64,000 bases of DNA from Hyphomicrobiales bacterium (GTDB lineage Bacteria; Pseudomonadota; Alphaproteobacteria; Rhizobiales; Rhizobiaceae), in assembly GCA_900467185.1 (NCBI GenBank), contig UBPA01000003.1, forward strand, positions 744,001 through 808,000, written 5' to 3'. Numbering within the stretch: the first letter of the stretch is position 1; the number at the start of each line of letters is the position of its first letter. The notes beneath the pieces were generated by a model, which was not told the origin of the DNA, did no database searches, and worked only from the letters and a program-made list of their open reading frames with translations. Both the position numbers and the translations under genes were made by a program. Below are positions 58,327-63,302 of this stretch, in pieces.

Positions 58327-58776
58327 ATGAACGCGAAGGCCCCCCATGCGATCGATATTTACGTTGGAGGTCGTGTTCGTGCGCGCCGGCTGATCCTCGG
58401 GATGAGCCAGACGGCGCTGGGCGACAGGCTGGGCATCACCTTCCAGCAGATCCAGAAGTACGAAAAGGGCGTGAACCGGATGGGCGCGAGCCGGCTGCAG
58501 GCCGCCGCCGATATTCTGAGCGTGCCGATCAGCTACTTCTTCCAGGACAATCCGAGCGACCAGACCCGCCCTGAGGCCGCCGATTTCGACGCGGTCAATG
58601 CGTTTCTGTCCACGCGCGAGGGCCTGTCGCTCAACAAGGCGTTCTCCTCCATCAAGAGCCCCGACATCCGCAAGACGGTCGTCGCCCTCGTGACCTCGCT
58701 GGCGCAGGGCGAAGAGGCTGCCGCCCGGCAGCCGGCGGATGCTTCCGCCGTGCAGGCGTCCGCCAACGCCTCCTGA
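58327..58776 (+). CDS. XRE-family transcriptional regulator (PraR-like)
   Basis: The 149-residue protein starts behind GCAGGAG. An XRE helix-turn-helix occupies residues 10–70: VGGRVRARRLILGMSQTALG, then GITFQQIQKYEKGVNRMGAS. A rhizobial-type C-terminal segment follows (FLSTREGLSLNKAFSSIKSP). The layout resembles PraR and related repressors. Its TGA shares a base with the ATG of the SARP-like gene, so the two regulators are made together. It probably controls the downstream YcaO–TfuA genes and itself. Confidence 0.9.
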   Translation: MNAKAPHAIDIYVGGRVRARRLILGMSQTALGDRLGITFQQIQKYEKGVNRMGASRLQAAADILSVPISYFFQDNPSDQTRPEAADFDAVNAFLSTREGLSLNKAFSSIKSPDIRKTVVALVTSLAQGEEAAARQPADASAVQASANAS

Positions 58777-60650
58777 TGTGCCCGCTGCGGCTGCAGACCT
58801 TCGGCAATCTGGCGCTCAAGAGCCGGAGTGGCGAGGACCTCGCCTTTCCGCAGAAGGCCCTGTTGCTCGTCTGCATGCTGCGCCTGGGCGAACGTCCCGT
58901 GCTGCGACGGGACGAAGCCTCGGCCCTGCTCTGGCCGGAGGCGGACCGGGAGGCGCAGCAGATCAATCTGCGCAAGATGGTTTCGCGCATCCGCAAGGCG
59001 CAGCTTGCCTATCACAGCGTGATTCTCGATATCGACGATACGTCCATCACGCTGGGCGATGACGGGCAGCGGCTGGTCGTGGACGCCGCCTGCTTCCGGC
59101 AAGACGACACGTCGCTCGACACCATGCTGGCCCTGCTGCGGGAGCGCTTCCTCGGCGGCAAGCTGCCGGACGGCCCGTTGCGTCGCTGGGCCGATTTGCA
59201 GGTCGATACGCAATATCACCTTCTACGCGCGCGCCTGCTCGCCTCGCCTGGCGCGACGGCTGCCGGCCCGGATATCGCGGCGATGCGGGAGGCGGCCTTT
59301 CTGCTCCTCGAACACAACGTTCATGACGAGCCGGTGCGGTCGCTTCTGGAGGCCGACGCTCCGTCGTCACAGCCGGCGATGCGCGCGACCGCCGACGGGC
59401 AGGCCCCGCGATCGGCAGCCACGCCGAGAAGCACGGCAGTGGACACGCGCCGGCCCGTCTATGCCGAGGTCATGCCGCGCGTGCAGCGCGCGCTGACGGT
59501 GACGGCATCGCTACCGCGGCTGGCGCTGCTGCCACCGGCCTTGCGGGCCGGCGCGTCGCGAACGCTGACCGGCACGGTCGCCGCCCTCATCGACGACATC
59601 GCCATCAGCCTCTGCACCCTGCGCGACATCTCGATCGTCGCGCCCCACACCGCCAAACGGATCCAGGAAAGCAACGACAAGATCGCTATGCTGGAAACGC
59701 ATGCCGTCTCCTATCTCGTGGATACGACCCTCTGCGCGGAAGGCCTGATGGTGCAGATCATCTTCGTGCCGCTCGATCGGGTCATCTGGGCGGAGCGCTT
59801 CGCCCTCGACGTTCCGTTTTCCTCGCATCGCAAGGTGATCGCCCGGATCATCGCGGACAGCATTGCCGCGGAGCTCAAGCGCAATCAGAACCCGCTGGTC
59901 GAGTACGAACACCATCCCGATGCCTATCGCGCCTATCTCTCCGGCGCCCGCCAGACGAAAGATCTCTCCCTGCCCTCCATTCGCGGTGCGCGGCGCGGCT
60001 TTCGCGAGGCGCTCCAGTATCGGCGGGACTTCGCACCGAGCTTCATCGGGCTCGCGCGCACCTATTCGCTGGAGTGGGTGCTGACGGCACGCGGCGACAA
60101 GAGCCTTCTCTTCAAGGCGGCGGATCATGCCCGGCTCGCCATCGCGCAGGATCCGGATGGCGCTGCCGGCTATAAGGAACTCGGCGTTGCCAAGCTGTAT
60201 CTCGGCGATCTCGACGAAAGCCTCGAGGCCCTGGCGCGCGCGGAAGCGCTCAGCCCGCATTATGCCGATGCGATCTACAGCTATGCCGACTCGCTCGTTC
60301 ATGCCTCGCGGCCCGACGAGGGGCTGCGCAAGATCCAGCGGGCGATCGAGCTCAATCCGCTCAGCCCCGACGATTATTTCTGGAGTGCGGCGGGCGCGAG
60401 CTACTTCGTCGGCCATTATCAGGATGCCATCGACTATATCGGCAGAATGTCCCACCCGTCCTCGGCCGACCGCCTGAGAGCGGCGGCCTTCGCCATGCTC
60501 GGCGACATCGCGATGGCGCGGCGCTACCGGCGCAAGGATCGTGAAGCCAACCCGCATTTCGACCTCGACCGCTGGCTCTCCGTTCTACCCATACGAGAAA
60601 CCTGGCAGAAAGAGCTTTACCGTGAAGGCCTTTCACGGGCAGGATATTAA
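58776..60650 (+). CDS. SARP-like regulator with TolB-like and TPR domains
   Basis: The 624-residue protein starts at ATG 58776, inside the preceding stop. Residues 1–80 resemble the SARP winged-helix (PLRLQTFGNLALKSRSGEDL, then SALLWPEADREAQQINLRKM). A TolB-like/CadC-type middle follows (AALIDDIAISLCTLRDISIV, FVPLDRVIWAERFALDVPF). The last third has TPR repeats (KELGVAKLYLGDLDESLEAL, AIELNPLSPDDYFWSAAGAS). SARP proteins activate biosynthetic clusters in actinomycetes. Here it precedes a precursor–YcaO–TfuA set. The effector is unknown. Confidence 0.85.
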   Translation: MCPLRLQTFGNLALKSRSGEDLAFPQKALLLVCMLRLGERPVLRRDEASALLWPEADREAQQINLRKMVSRIRKAQLAYHSVILDIDDTSITLGDDGQRLVVDAACFRQDDTSLDTMLALLRERFLGGKLPDGPLRRWADLQVDTQYHLLRARLLASPGATAAGPDIAAMREAAFLLLEHNVHDEPVRSLLEADAPSSQPAMRATADGQAPRSAATPRSTAVDTRRPVYAEVMPRVQRALTVTASLPRLALLPPALRAGASRTLTGTVAALIDDIAISLCTLRDISIVAPHTAKRIQESNDKIAMLETHAVSYLVDTTLCAEGLMVQIIFVPLDRVIWAERFALDVPFSSHRKVIARIIADSIAAELKRNQNPLVEYEHHPDAYRAYLSGARQTKDLSLPSIRGARRGFREALQYRRDFAPSFIGLARTYSLEWVLTARGDKSLLFKAADHARLAIAQDPDGAAGYKELGVAKLYLGDLDESLEALARAEALSPHYADAIYSYADSLVHASRPDEGLRKIQRAIELNPLSPDDYFWSAAGASYFVGHYQDAIDYIGRMSHPSSADRLRAAAFAMLGDIAMARRYRRKDREANPHFDLDRWLSVLPIRETWQKELYREGLSRAGY

Positions 60651-60677
60651 CGGCAGAATCGCTTGTCGATCCTGCCG
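60651..60677 (+). other. Imperfect hairpin between the regulator and the precursor gene
   Basis: CGGCAG (60651–60656) pairs with CTGCCG (60672–60677), with inner ATCG/CGAT after one mismatch. It starts directly after the regulator's stop and has no T-tract. It may be an RNA processing or stability element setting the level of the precursor mRNA. Confidence 0.4.
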
Positions 60678-60749
60678 GGACAGCCACTTCCGTCCTCAAC
60701 CAGAGGCGGCAATCGGTTGTCTTTTCATTCTCGCCATGAAGGAAATCGC

Positions 60750-60953
60750 ATGTCCAAAACTGTTGTTTTCGGCTTCCCCGGGGATAGCCAGCTCTATGTC
60801 GCCGATGTCGAGGCGGGCACCGTCAAGCCGCTCGAGGACACGGATGGTCGAGCCGGCGAACTGCGTTCGTCGCGCGCGCCGTTCATCCGCGGCGTCGATA
60901 TCGCCGTCGCACTCGATCCGGCCGACAAGGCCTTCTCCGGCCTCTTCGACTGA
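60750..60953 (+). CDS. Candidate RiPP precursor peptide (67 aa)
   Basis: ATG at 60750 follows AAGGAAATCGC. The 67-residue peptide starts MSKTVVFGFPGDSQLYVADV and ends DIAVALDPADKAFSGLFD. It is acidic, has no Cys and no signal peptide. It lies just before a ycaO gene whose TTG start is five bases after this stop, the usual place of a substrate peptide. A core cannot be defined by eye: thioamidation does not need Cys or Ser. It could also be a partner protein rather than the substrate. Confidence 0.6.
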   Translation: MSKTVVFGFPGDSQLYVADVEAGTVKPLEDTDGRAGELRSSRAPFIRGVDIAVALDPADKAFSGLFD

Positions 60954-60958
60954 CGCCA

Positions 60959-62134
60959 TTGCGCCTTCAGAGCTTCAACAGACAGTGCACCGCGGCCGAG
61001 ACCTTCGACCGCGTTGCACCTTTTCTTGCCGGTTACGGCATTACCCGGGTCGCCCGGCATACCGCGCTCGACCGGATCGGCATTCCCGTCTGGTGCGCCT
61101 ACACGCCGAACGCCCGATCCATCGTCGTGGCGCAGGGCAAGGGCGCGACCGATGCGGATGCGCGGACCTCCGCCGTCATGGAAGCGCTGGAACGGGCGAT
61201 CGGCTGCGATCCCGCCGTGGCGGTGACCAGAGCGAGCATGGCGGAGCTGACGCGGCGCGGACGGGCCTTGCATGCGCTGCCGGGATTGATCGCCTCCGGC
61301 CATGATCCGCTTTCGGCGGAAGACGAGACGGACTGGGTCGAGGGGCGGGATCTCGTCAGCGGCGAAACGGTCCTCGTGCCCTGGCAGGCCGTCGTCCTCG
61401 ACCGGACGATCCACGACAGCCGCTACTGGCAATCCTCCGACGGGCTCGCCTCCGGCAACACGCATGAGGAGGCGATCCTGCATGGGCTGATGGAGCGCGT
61501 GGAACGCGATGCGCATGCCCTCTGGCAGTTGCGCCCGCAGGCGGCCCGGCAGGCGCGCTGCGTGGCGCCGTCCTGTTTCGACGATCCCACCATCTTAGAC
61601 GCGGAACGCCGGATCGGCGATGCGGGGCTGACGCTGCGCCTGTTCGATGTCACGAGCGATCTCGGTCTTCCCTGCTTTGCCGCGTTTCTCGGGCCGGATG
61701 CGGCGCGTCTCGCGGGAAAGCGGCTGCGGCACGTCGATGTGACCTTCGGATGCGGCGCGCACCCCCTGCCCCGGCAGGCAGCCCTGCGGGCCATCACCGA
61801 ATGCGCCCAGTCGCGCCTGACCTATATCAGCGGCGCGCGCGATGACGTGTTTCCCGCCGACTACGACCGACCCTTGGCGGAAAGCATCTGGCACGCGATG
61901 ATGGCGGCACCCGTCACCCGCGCCTTTGCCAAGCGACCTGTGTGCACGCCCGAAACCCTGATCGGCCATCTCCACGGGCGGCGTGCCGGCTCGATGATCG
62001 CGGTGCGGCTCTCCCCTCCCGAGCTTCCCTTCGCCGTCGTCAAGGTTCTGGCGCCCGCGCTCGAAAATCCGGAGGGGAAGCGCCGGCAGCGATACGGGAC
62101 GCGCGCGCTCCGCCAGACACTGGTGCAAGGATGA
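60959..62134 (+). CDS. YcaO-family ATP-dependent cyclodehydratase/thioamide synthase
   Basis: The 391-residue YcaO protein starts with TTG at 60959, five bases after the peptide stop. YcaO ATP-binding residues are visible: TSAVMEALERAIGCD (Glu75, Glu78), EAILHGLMERVERDAHALW (Glu179, Glu182) and RAITECAQSRLTYISGARDD (Glu281, Gln284, Arg286). The C-terminus lacks the PxPxP tail of azoline-forming YcaO and there is no E1/ocin-ThiF partner. With TfuA next door, backbone thioamide formation is the likely chemistry. Confidence 0.93.
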   Translation: MRLQSFNRQCTAAETFDRVAPFLAGYGITRVARHTALDRIGIPVWCAYTPNARSIVVAQGKGATDADARTSAVMEALERAIGCDPAVAVTRASMAELTRRGRALHALPGLIASGHDPLSAEDETDWVEGRDLVSGETVLVPWQAVVLDRTIHDSRYWQSSDGLASGNTHEEAILHGLMERVERDAHALWQLRPQAARQARCVAPSCFDDPTILDAERRIGDAGLTLRLFDVTSDLGLPCFAAFLGPDAARLAGKRLRHVDVTFGCGAHPLPRQAALRAITECAQSRLTYISGARDDVFPADYDRPLAESIWHAMMAAPVTRAFAKRPVCTPETLIGHLHGRRAGSMIAVRLSPPELPFAVVKVLAPALENPEGKRRQRYGTRALRQTLVQG

Positions 62135-62141
62135 GACGAGC

Positions 62142-62873
62142 ATGAAAGTTCTGTTTGTCGGGCCAACGCTGCCGGACGCCGCGCGATGCGCGCCCGGCCT
62201 CGACATCCGGCCGCCCGCCATCCAGGGCGATCTCTATCGCGCGGTGCGCGATGGCGCCGTCGTGATCGGGCTGGTCGATGGCGGGTTCGAATACACCGCC
62301 CCTGTCTGGCACAAGGAGATCCTCTACGCCTTGTCCGAGGGCGTCGCGGTTCTGGGTGCCGCCAGCATGGGCGCGCTGCGGGCGGCCGAGTGCCGGGCCT
62401 TCGGCATGGTCGGCATCGGAACAATCGCGCAGGCCTATGCCGACGGCACGCTGGTGGACGATGCCGATGTGGCGCAGCTTCACGCACCGGCCGAACTCGG
62501 CTGGGCGAGCCTGACCGAGCCTCTGGTCAATATCGTCGCCACGCTGCAGCAGCCCCATCTGCCGGCCGGCTTCACGCCGGACCTGTGCGACCGGATCGAA
62601 GCGGCCGCGCGCCAGCTGCATTTCAAGGAGCGGACCTGGGCGGCCATCGCCGATCGCATCGACTTTCCGGACGCAGGACTTCGCACGAAGCTCGAAAAGG
62701 ACCTGAAGGCCAGCGCCTGCAACCGCAAGCGGGAGGATGCCCTGCTTCTGGTCGCAGCGATGACGGCGCATGCCGGCGAACGGTCGCCCGACCGGCCCGC
62801 TTGGGTCTTTCAGGAGACGACGCTCTGGCGCGACCTTCTGGACCGGGAAAATGCGAAACTGCTTATGTTTTGA
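62142..62873 (+). CDS. TfuA-like protein
   Basis: The 243-residue protein starts MKVLFVGPTLPDAARCAPGL, the FVGPTL hallmark of TfuA. PPAIQGDLYRAVRDGAVVIG, then FEYTAPVWHKEILYALSEG and VLGAASMGALRAAECRAFGM, are conserved. TfuA recruits or supplies sulfide to YcaO for peptide thioamidation (established for archaeal McrA and for thioviridamide-like and trifolitoxin systems). It follows ycaO by seven bases and ends the core operon. Confidence 0.95.
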   Translation: MKVLFVGPTLPDAARCAPGLDIRPPAIQGDLYRAVRDGAVVIGLVDGGFEYTAPVWHKEILYALSEGVAVLGAASMGALRAAECRAFGMVGIGTIAQAYADGTLVDDADVAQLHAPAELGWASLTEPLVNIVATLQQPHLPAGFTPDLCDRIEAAARQLHFKERTWAAIADRIDFPDAGLRTKLEKDLKASACNRKREDALLLVAAMTAHAGERSPDRPAWVFQETTLWRDLLDRENAKLLMF

Positions 62874-62985
62874 AGGACCTCTACCCGCTCGTGACAAGTC
62901 ACGCTTTGCATGTCACGGCAATGTCACGCGCGATTTCCTCCGTCAGCGTCTACAGTCATTCCGGGACAACGGAACGGCTTGGAAC

Positions 62986-63228
62986 ATGACACTCAGCAAC
63001 CCGCACGCGGAACAGATCGACGTCGCTCACGCAGAGCGAGACCCTCAGGAAGTCCGGGCCCTCGCCCGGTTGATCGTGTTCGCCCGGCAGAATGCGATCG
63101 ATCTCAATATGGAACATGCGGTGCATTGCCTCGATCTCGCTCTGCGATCGGTTCTGCAGGAAGGCGACAGCACCTTCGATGGTCTCGCCTTCCCCGATTC
63201 GAGCCTGCAGAGGCTGCGCGCACATTAA
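62986..63228 (+). CDS. Small hypothetical protein (80 aa) at the end of the RiPP cluster
   Basis: ATG at 62986 has only a weak GGAA upstream. The 80-residue product is helical and soluble: AERDPQEVRALARLIVFARQ, then MEHAVHCLDLALRSVLQEGD. I do not recognise it. It lies 112 bases after tfuA on the same strand and before a terminator at 63275, so it may be cotranscribed with the cluster. It could equally be an unrelated gene. Confidence 0.55.
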   Translation: MTLSNPHAEQIDVAHAERDPQEVRALARLIVFARQNAIDLNMEHAVHCLDLALRSVLQEGDSTFDGLAFPDSSLQRLRAH

Positions 63229-63274
63229 TTGCCGTCGCGGCTTCGCCGTCGGGCAGGTACGAACGGACACTCTC

Positions 63275-63302
63275 GCCTCGGCCTCCGGCCGGGGCTTTCT
63301 TG
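63275..63302 (+). terminator. Intrinsic terminator closing the RiPP cluster
   Basis: GCCTCGGCC (63275–63283) pairs with GGCCGGGGC (63287–63295), one T·G pair, 3-base loop, then TTTCTTGT. It separates the plus-strand cluster from the minus-strand ABC permease. Confidence 0.75.

Follow-up and report, generated by a model that had tools for sequence, protein, structure and literature searches.

Introduction

The closest described systems are the TfuA-YcaO clusters of thioamidated ribosomally synthesized and post-translationally modified peptides (RiPPs), such as the thiovarsolins and the thioviridamide group. Adjacent YcaO and TfuA genes are accompanied there by a short precursor with a leader and a C-terminal core; repeated cores occur in the thiovarsolin precursor VarA. 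An excerpt of PMC13063428 describes TfuA as a hydrolase assisting sulfide delivery. In the accessible part of PMC8120280 the known thioamidated RiPPs of the TfuA-YcaO pair are all from Actinobacteria, and more than 500 Rhizobium TfuA clusters are catalogued by genome mining. A cluster of the same plan is described here from a 64,000-nucleotide stretch of a Hyphomicrobiales bacterium (the window; assembly GCA_900467185.1, contig UBPA01000003.1, positions 744,001 to 808,000, forward strand). It encodes an XRE-family regulator, a SARP-like regulator, a 67-amino-acid (aa) peptide, YcaO and TfuA. It differs from the known clusters in the precursor sequence, in the winged-helix/TPR regulator beside the precursor, in the frequent placement of peptide and enzymes at separate loci, and in the absence of additional tailoring enzymes shared across lineages.

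Single components are shared with other systems. The archaeal pair that thioamidates a glycine of McrA (TIGR03266/NF033432) is the best-scoring among curated families, and its substrate also has a glycine near F and D; in the present cluster a short peptide takes the place of McrA as candidate substrate. SARP regulators such as AfsR likewise combine a winged helix, a helical domain and a C-terminal TPR part, with a NOD domain in place of the TolB-like domain seen here (PMC10936776, in part) and a weak sequence match. Tandemly duplicated pheromone propeptides exist among RRNPP systems (excerpt of PMC11343458). As in the RRNPP pairs of Firmicutes, a TPR regulator gene adjoins a short propeptide gene whose active part is C-terminal; unlike them, the present pair has no evident secretion signal, another receptor architecture, a predicted thioamidation and a Gram-negative host. 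Trifolitoxin of Rhizobium has a gene set different from that of this cluster. The host is rhizobial in both cases and TfuA is involved in trifolitoxin production (PMC4603692, in part), but trifolitoxin is an azol(in)e-modified product (PMC9670871, in part).

The locus is read here as part of a Rhizobiaceae-centred peptide modification-and-sensing system, in which the precursor would be thioamidated by YcaO-TfuA and sensed by the paired TPR regulator; for this reading as a whole we see an even balance of belief and doubt. It is based on gene content, conservation, selection, linkage, co-occurrence and covariation. We know of no product of this TfuA-YcaO arrangement. A literature search at title and abstract level, with most subscription journals outside it, returned no thioamidated product of rhizobial TfuA-YcaO clusters and no paper on this regulator-peptide pair. 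TfuA-YcaO clusters are known, and the peptide-regulator version is new; the precursor family may already be listed in the supplements of PMC8120280.

Precursor peptide and enzyme pair

Named loci (n=80) were collected by YcaO and further relatives by TfuA, none by the regulator; counts of neighbouring enzymes are therefore biased upward. One scan kept the best 80 of 253 relatives, mostly from Rhizobium, Sinorhizobium/Ensifer and Neorhizobium. Loci are cited by number (L) where they have to be told apart. The peptide adjoins YcaO in 71 of the 80 named loci, and the nine without a local peptide have one elsewhere in the same genome (9/9; among these, L142 apparently equals genome G035, already known). 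The peptide is thus conserved as companion of this YcaO subfamily, and the reading of the preliminary description, which a consistent lack of the peptide beside homologous YcaO-TfuA pairs would have contradicted, is not refuted for it. Among the wider relatives found by TfuA, 21 of 52 loci have a member of this peptide family scoring at least 40 bits, and L078 and L083 add two at 31-32 bits. TfuA (PF07812) is present in 48 of 201 genomes, the window genome counted, and in 122 of 394 genomes of the window's family, a sample that we take to be Rhizobiaceae in the delimitation of GTDB. The peptide profile, built from 19 sequences, matches 77 of the 394, and TfuA is present in 77 of these 77 (hypergeometric P 3e-50, without phylogenetic correction).

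The 94 distinct peptides scoring at least 30 bits mostly share the leader MAKVVVIGxPGExxLWxADLxAGTV... and usually end in (F/S/L)(S/A/G)G(H/L/V/F)(F/V/M)(D/E), often followed by G. Deviating ends occur in L054, L066, L078, L080 and L083. In the 88 peptides matching the search pattern, position +3 is D (74), E (12) or V (2), and 45 have H at position +1; as the pattern selected these peptides, it does not give an independent count of the glycine. The core glycine is also invariant in an alignment built without the pattern (Table 1). Three or four core motifs are present in L041, L042, the second peptide of L198, and L200, and 0 of 5000 tail shuffles reach the count in each case. Three cores are seen by eye in L060, of which the pattern counts two, a number reached by 306 of 5000 shuffles. 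L041 has four FSGKL(E/D) units; DNA differences within FSGKLE are synonymous, save D for E in the last unit.

Selection was estimated from six members of the genus (15 pairs) as mean nonsynonymous (dN) and synonymous (dS) divergence. The peptide has a dN of 0.021 against a dS of 0.40 (dN/dS ~0.05), so its open reading frame (ORF) is not a chance one. The corresponding dN, dS and dN/dS are 0.103, 0.48 and 0.21 for YcaO, 0.111, 0.56 and 0.20 for TfuA, 0.063, 0.45 and 0.14 for the SARP-like regulator, 0.060, 0.37 and 0.16 for a conserved 80-aa protein, and 0.010, 0.27 and 0.04 for XRE. By mean dN/dS of the six cluster proteins, only XRE is therefore more constrained than the peptide.

In sequence, the stand-alone YcaO and its TfuA are similar to the McrA pair: the best curated families are TIGR03266 for YcaO (179 bits) and NF033432 for TfuA (148 bits), both under their equivalog cut-offs. 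This likeness agrees with the earlier proposal that a stand-alone YcaO beside TfuA indicates thioamidation. The invariant YcaO residues include E75, E78, E179 and E182 (18-row alignment). A scan of genes in the window gave no E1-like/ThiF-like partner of the azol(in)e type (TOMM/LAP), and the core AFSGLFD, with one Ser, no Cys and no Thr, is unlike the Cys/Ser/Thr-rich cores of that type. Enzymes encoded together and a conserved short precursor with leader and core are found here as in TfuA-YcaO RiPP clusters. Modified either in cis or in trans, the 67-aa peptide is the likely YcaO-TfuA substrate, and the backbone thioamide would lie at or beside the conserved glycine of FSGx(F/V/M)(D/E).

Paired regulator

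The linkage set comprises 107 rows with peptides of at least 40 bits: 72 named loci, 22 relatives and 13 loci (L165-L177) picked for a peptide without TfuA nearby or with TfuA on the other strand (L176). Seven of these 13 are without YcaO as well. YcaO lies at most 600 nucleotides (nt) downstream of the peptide in 99/107 rows, and TfuA is close downstream in 81/107. The regulator lies directly upstream, at most 600 nt away, in 107/107 rows; the view that it is an oddity of this locus is not upheld, and the adjacency of TPR receptor and propeptide expected of RRNPP pairs is found, the TPR part being taken from a model. In many Sinorhizobium loci regulator, peptide and YcaO are grouped without TfuA behind; in L192 and L194-L197 the TfuA gene is divergently oriented before the regulator. 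In genomes with a peptide away from the YcaO locus, 10 of 12 peptides have the regulator directly upstream (L183 repeats L166). The regulator-peptide pair mostly stays together even where YcaO or TfuA is elsewhere.

The AlphaFold model of the regulator (42 sequences, mean predicted local distance difference test, pLDDT, 85.9) has a winged helix (residues ~1-93), a helical domain (95-193), a disordered linker (197-243), a mixed alpha/beta domain (~246-368) and a TPR superhelix (371-622). The mixed domain, which has no database match, is called TolB-like here. The top Foldseek matches of the model are TPR superhelices; TPR matches in Pfam are weak (best E 8e-6). SARPs are defined by an OmpR-type winged helix with a BTA domain. 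The window regulator has no SARP or Trans_reg_C match in Pfam. Trans_reg_C is matched at E<=1 by 12 of 34 members of the regulator family (best 8e-4), and AfsR structure 8hvr matches weakly (E 0.74). These weak Pfam and PDB matches, with a compatible model, suggest a SARP kinship. Of the earlier designation as a SARP-like regulator with TPR repeats, the TPR superhelix is borne out by model and Foldseek, and the SARP label is kept as a suggestion given its weak matches. The length of 624 aa lies outside the 250-500 aa given for RRNPP receptors in the available part of PMC10075063.

Covariation was measured by partial rank Mantel tests, given the other proteins, on 81 unique loci from 97 rows of at least 60 bits; 11 further rows were left out. 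Partial correlations with the core are 0.328 for the TPR domain (p 0.001), 0.263 for YcaO (p 0.001), 0.042 for the TolB-like domain (p 0.18) and 0.009 for the DNA-binding domain (p 0.42). Those with the leader are 0.251 for YcaO, 0.205 for the TolB-like domain, 0.147 for TPR (p 0.008) and 0.006 for the DNA-binding domain. After thinning to 47, 34 and 23 representatives, the core-TPR partial is 0.267, 0.216 and 0.161 (p 0.001, 0.005, 0.019) and the core-YcaO partial 0.223, 0.236 and 0.146 (p 0.001, 0.005, 0.056). With TfuA as control target, TPR partials are 0.122, 0.069 and 0.015 and the DNA-binding domain is best in 3/3 runs; with XRE, they are 0.040, 0.091 and 0.144 and the TolB-like domain is best in 3/3. 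TPR is the best domain in none of these six control runs. The core-TPR partial is 0.20-0.32 in the subsets with TfuA or XRE. Core variation tracks the TPR domain of the regulator and not its DNA-binding domain, although saturation of the latter may weaken its signal. Such tests leave part of the shared ancestry in place; the stronger point is this contrast among domains within a single regulator.

We propose that the regulator senses the peptide, since the two are almost always paired and the core covaries with the TPR domain. The regulator would be a dedicated peptide receptor whose TPR superhelix binds the core, a step that we place at, or a shade below, even balance. Within it, the TolB-like domain would perhaps meet the leader, and in the full-length regulator the winged helix would then alter transcription. 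More tentatively, the thioamidated peptide would be the cognate ligand of an alphaproteobacterial TPR transcription regulator, forming an RRNPP-like peptide-signal or sulfur-sensing switch, possibly wholly intracellular, with several regulator-peptide modules sharing one YcaO-TfuA pair in trans. Given that no dedicated exporter, protease or immunity gene was found, the peptide may, speculatively, remain intracellular or use housekeeping export. As speculative is the idea that its sulfur state could act as a switch reporting sulfide or ATP supply.

Alternative explanations

Several points weigh against sensing by the regulator. A cluster-specific activator would likewise sit beside the precursor gene. 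Partial Mantel tests guard only partly against shared ancestry; the core-TPR partial is halved or nearly so with 23 representatives, YcaO covaries with the core as well, and the core-TolB-like partial climbs to 0.09-0.18 in the subsets with TfuA or XRE. Two multi-core peptides (the second of L198, and L200) have no regulator directly upstream. The regulators of L168, L177 and L199, which are peptide loci without YcaO, align with the window protein from residues 243, 247 and 201 onward (TolB-like and TPR parts) and thus seem to be without the DNA-binding part; that of L199 is one frame without an N-terminal part. The winged helix itself is weakly backed by sequence, and no peptide-pheromone receptor is among the 50 Foldseek matches listed. 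No secretion signal is evident in the peptide: a basic-hydrophobic start is absent by inspection, no signal predictor having been run. Its best 15-residue hydropathy within the first 35 residues is 0.77 (family median 1.35, n=92). The AlphaFold model of the peptide is poor (pLDDT 64.9). The McrA thioglycine lies within LGFFGFDLQ (excerpt of PMC5589413), which is loosely like the FSGLFD core, but so short a motif could agree by chance.

The cluster could instead make an ordinary thioamidated RiPP natural product, whose regulators only switch on the cluster, in the manner of Streptomyces SARPs, and which is cleaved and exported by housekeeping functions and acts outside the cell. This is consistent with the leader, core and tandem cores resembling VarA, whose cluster, in the accessible part of PMC6511847, also has no specific protease and is thus a precedent for repeated cores without one. 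TfuA-YcaO clusters are common in Rhizobium (PMC8120280, in part), SARPs activate antibiotic clusters (PMC10936776, in part), and 11 loci of a single Rhizobium lineage have, some kilobases downstream and on the opposite strand, a gene resembling ABC transporters (L123:11933-13123). Yet the low dN/dS of the peptide and its identical core in six genus members are unlike an arms race, the regulator remains with the peptide and not with the enzymes, and the core covaries with the TPR and not the DNA-binding domain. Within ~6 kb, no gene for an exporter, protease or immunity function is found repeatedly across lineages; the statement of the preliminary description that none is visible stands in this form, with the exception of the transporter-like gene of that one lineage. 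A natural product is on these grounds a rather doubtful alternative.

A further reading is an intracellular sulfur-status switch, in which thioamidation reports the supply of sulfide or persulfide and the regulator controls sulfur detoxification. It would suit the role of TfuA in sulfide delivery (PMC13063428, in part). A hint of sulfur sensing comes from one clade, in which a SufS-like class-V aminotransferase, a Blh-like dioxygenase and a TauE/SafE exporter follow the regulator-peptide pair (L192, L195, L197; L192:5202-8449); in L196 the first and the last are seen and the dioxygenase was not called. Families were checked for L192 and L195 only: the aminotransferase reaches 139 bits against a cut-off of 475, and the dioxygenase part of the sulfur transferase/dioxygenase Blh 551-559 bits against 625. 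However, L192 and L195-L197 look like a single clade, the neighbours tested at the window are not sulfur genes, and no neighbour is common to different lineages, which leaves this switch improbable. Least probable by far is that YcaO-TfuA modifies another protein, such as ribosomal uL16, beside an unrelated small protein. Other YcaO enzymes do modify McrA or uL16 (in the passages available), but the peptide co-occurs with the enzymes in 77/77 genomes and again in 9/9. uL16 was rejected as the target: the E. coli-type YcaO model scores the window YcaO at only 16.7 bits, and TfuA is reportedly, in the passages available, not encoded near the suspected uL16-modifying YcaO genes.

Gene arrangement and features

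Re-reading of ORFs and junctions gave the genes described earlier in the order described, XRE, regulator, peptide, YcaO and TfuA (Table 1); the 80-aa ORF had been left unnamed. This order is found in 59 of 81 loci (80 named and the window), 46 of these also with the 80-aa gene.

Table 1. Features of the cluster in window coordinates
Feature	Position	Strand	Properties and basis
XRE-family helix-turn-helix (HTH) regulator	58327..58776	+	149 aa; HTH_3 E 1.5e-10 (Pfam)
SARP-like regulator, candidate receptor	58776..60650	+	624 aa; AlphaFold model, Foldseek TPR matches
Precursor-like peptide, leader and C-terminal core	60750..60953	+	67 aa; alignments, dN/dS ~0.05 in genus
Predicted core AFSGLFD, residues 61-67	60930..60950	+	motif tandemly repeated in relatives
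Conserved core glycine	60939-60941	+	invariant in 35-row peptide alignment
YcaO, predicted thioamide-forming ATP-dependent enzyme	60959..62134	+	391 aa, TTG start; PF02624 222 bits, E 2e-65
TfuA, predicted sulfur-delivery partner of YcaO	62142..62873	+	243 aa; PF07812 129 bits, E 7.8e-38
Conserved 80-aa protein	62986..63228	+	relatives in 51/80 named loci

The XRE gene and the regulator gene share one base at 58776 (TGATG). AAGGAA precedes the peptide ATG, and the gap from the peptide stop to the YcaO start is 5 nt. Relatives L040 and L070 have ATG at the position equivalent to the TTG start of the window YcaO. The window genome has a single YcaO and a single TfuA. In this genome, XRE has one paralog with 55% identity and a partial match at 45%, and the regulator has no paralog at E<=0.001. 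An XRE relative is found in 73/80 named loci. The 80-aa protein matches nothing in Pfam or NCBIfam at E<=0.01; its gene trails YcaO even with TfuA elsewhere (L131, L132, L139, L150, L152).

The proteins tested next to the window cluster are an exonuclease-type protein and an ABC permease. Five other members of the genus share the flanks of the cluster; in a sixth, L038, which is a diverged copy, 0/3 flank proteins were found. In 100 loci, considering ORFs of at least 90 aa, no gene (target, exporter or protease) is common to cluster neighbourhoods across lineages, and recurring neighbours are single-lineage genes, cluster genes or overlapping frames. In the Rhizobium lineage with the transporter-like gene, a S-adenosylmethionine methyltransferase precedes the cluster (L123:2525-3223 and 13 other loci), and a glycosyltransferase stands with that gene downstream (L123:10812-13123 and about 10 others).

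In L046 and L068 a related TPR regulator and YcaO-TfuA are separated by a different ORF of 42-47 aa that ends in HALRFR or HAVRFR, possibly another precursor family. ORFs of 142-158 aa, with N-termini that recall the leader, lie between a related regulator and YcaO in L056, L064, L069 and L072. Very repetitive candidate precursors are present in L083 (4728-5441, TfuA-oriented strand), with many units containing ASHHYFPNRG, and in L078, with several copies of SSHNWGEPVRGGD.

Distribution

The peptide profile, run against 385 genomes sampled from the class, matched the window's own only (0/384 others). Further families of the order have divergent forms of the peptide, namely in L080 (63 bits; this peptide is itself a row of the profile) and in L078 and L083 (31-32 bits). 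Carriers include a Sinorhizobium meliloti strain (L105) and many Rhizobium species. Peptide relatives are matched in 49 plasmid records, all of Rhizobium-type genera, six of them typed conjugative; in the two records inspected, regulator and peptide are both annotated as hypothetical protein. The window peptide has no match among phage records. On a Rhizobium rhizogenes plasmid (L201:8001-13603), a stretch of ~6 kb encodes a single-core precursor and a multi-core-like one together with two YcaO, one TfuA and a protein of the 80-aa type.

Significance

For rhizobial TfuA-YcaO, a likely substrate family, its core, a likely modification site and a candidate receptor are now named. If the receptor reading is true, a modified-peptide regulatory circuit would be added to those of Gram-negative bacteria. 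If the ligand reading is true, RRNPP-like logic would exist outside Firmicutes, with a backbone-modified ligand. As judged from sequence, soil and root-nodule bacteria related to Rhizobium probably exchange oxygen for sulfur in a short peptide, and sensing of this peptide by the adjacent regulator is suggested.

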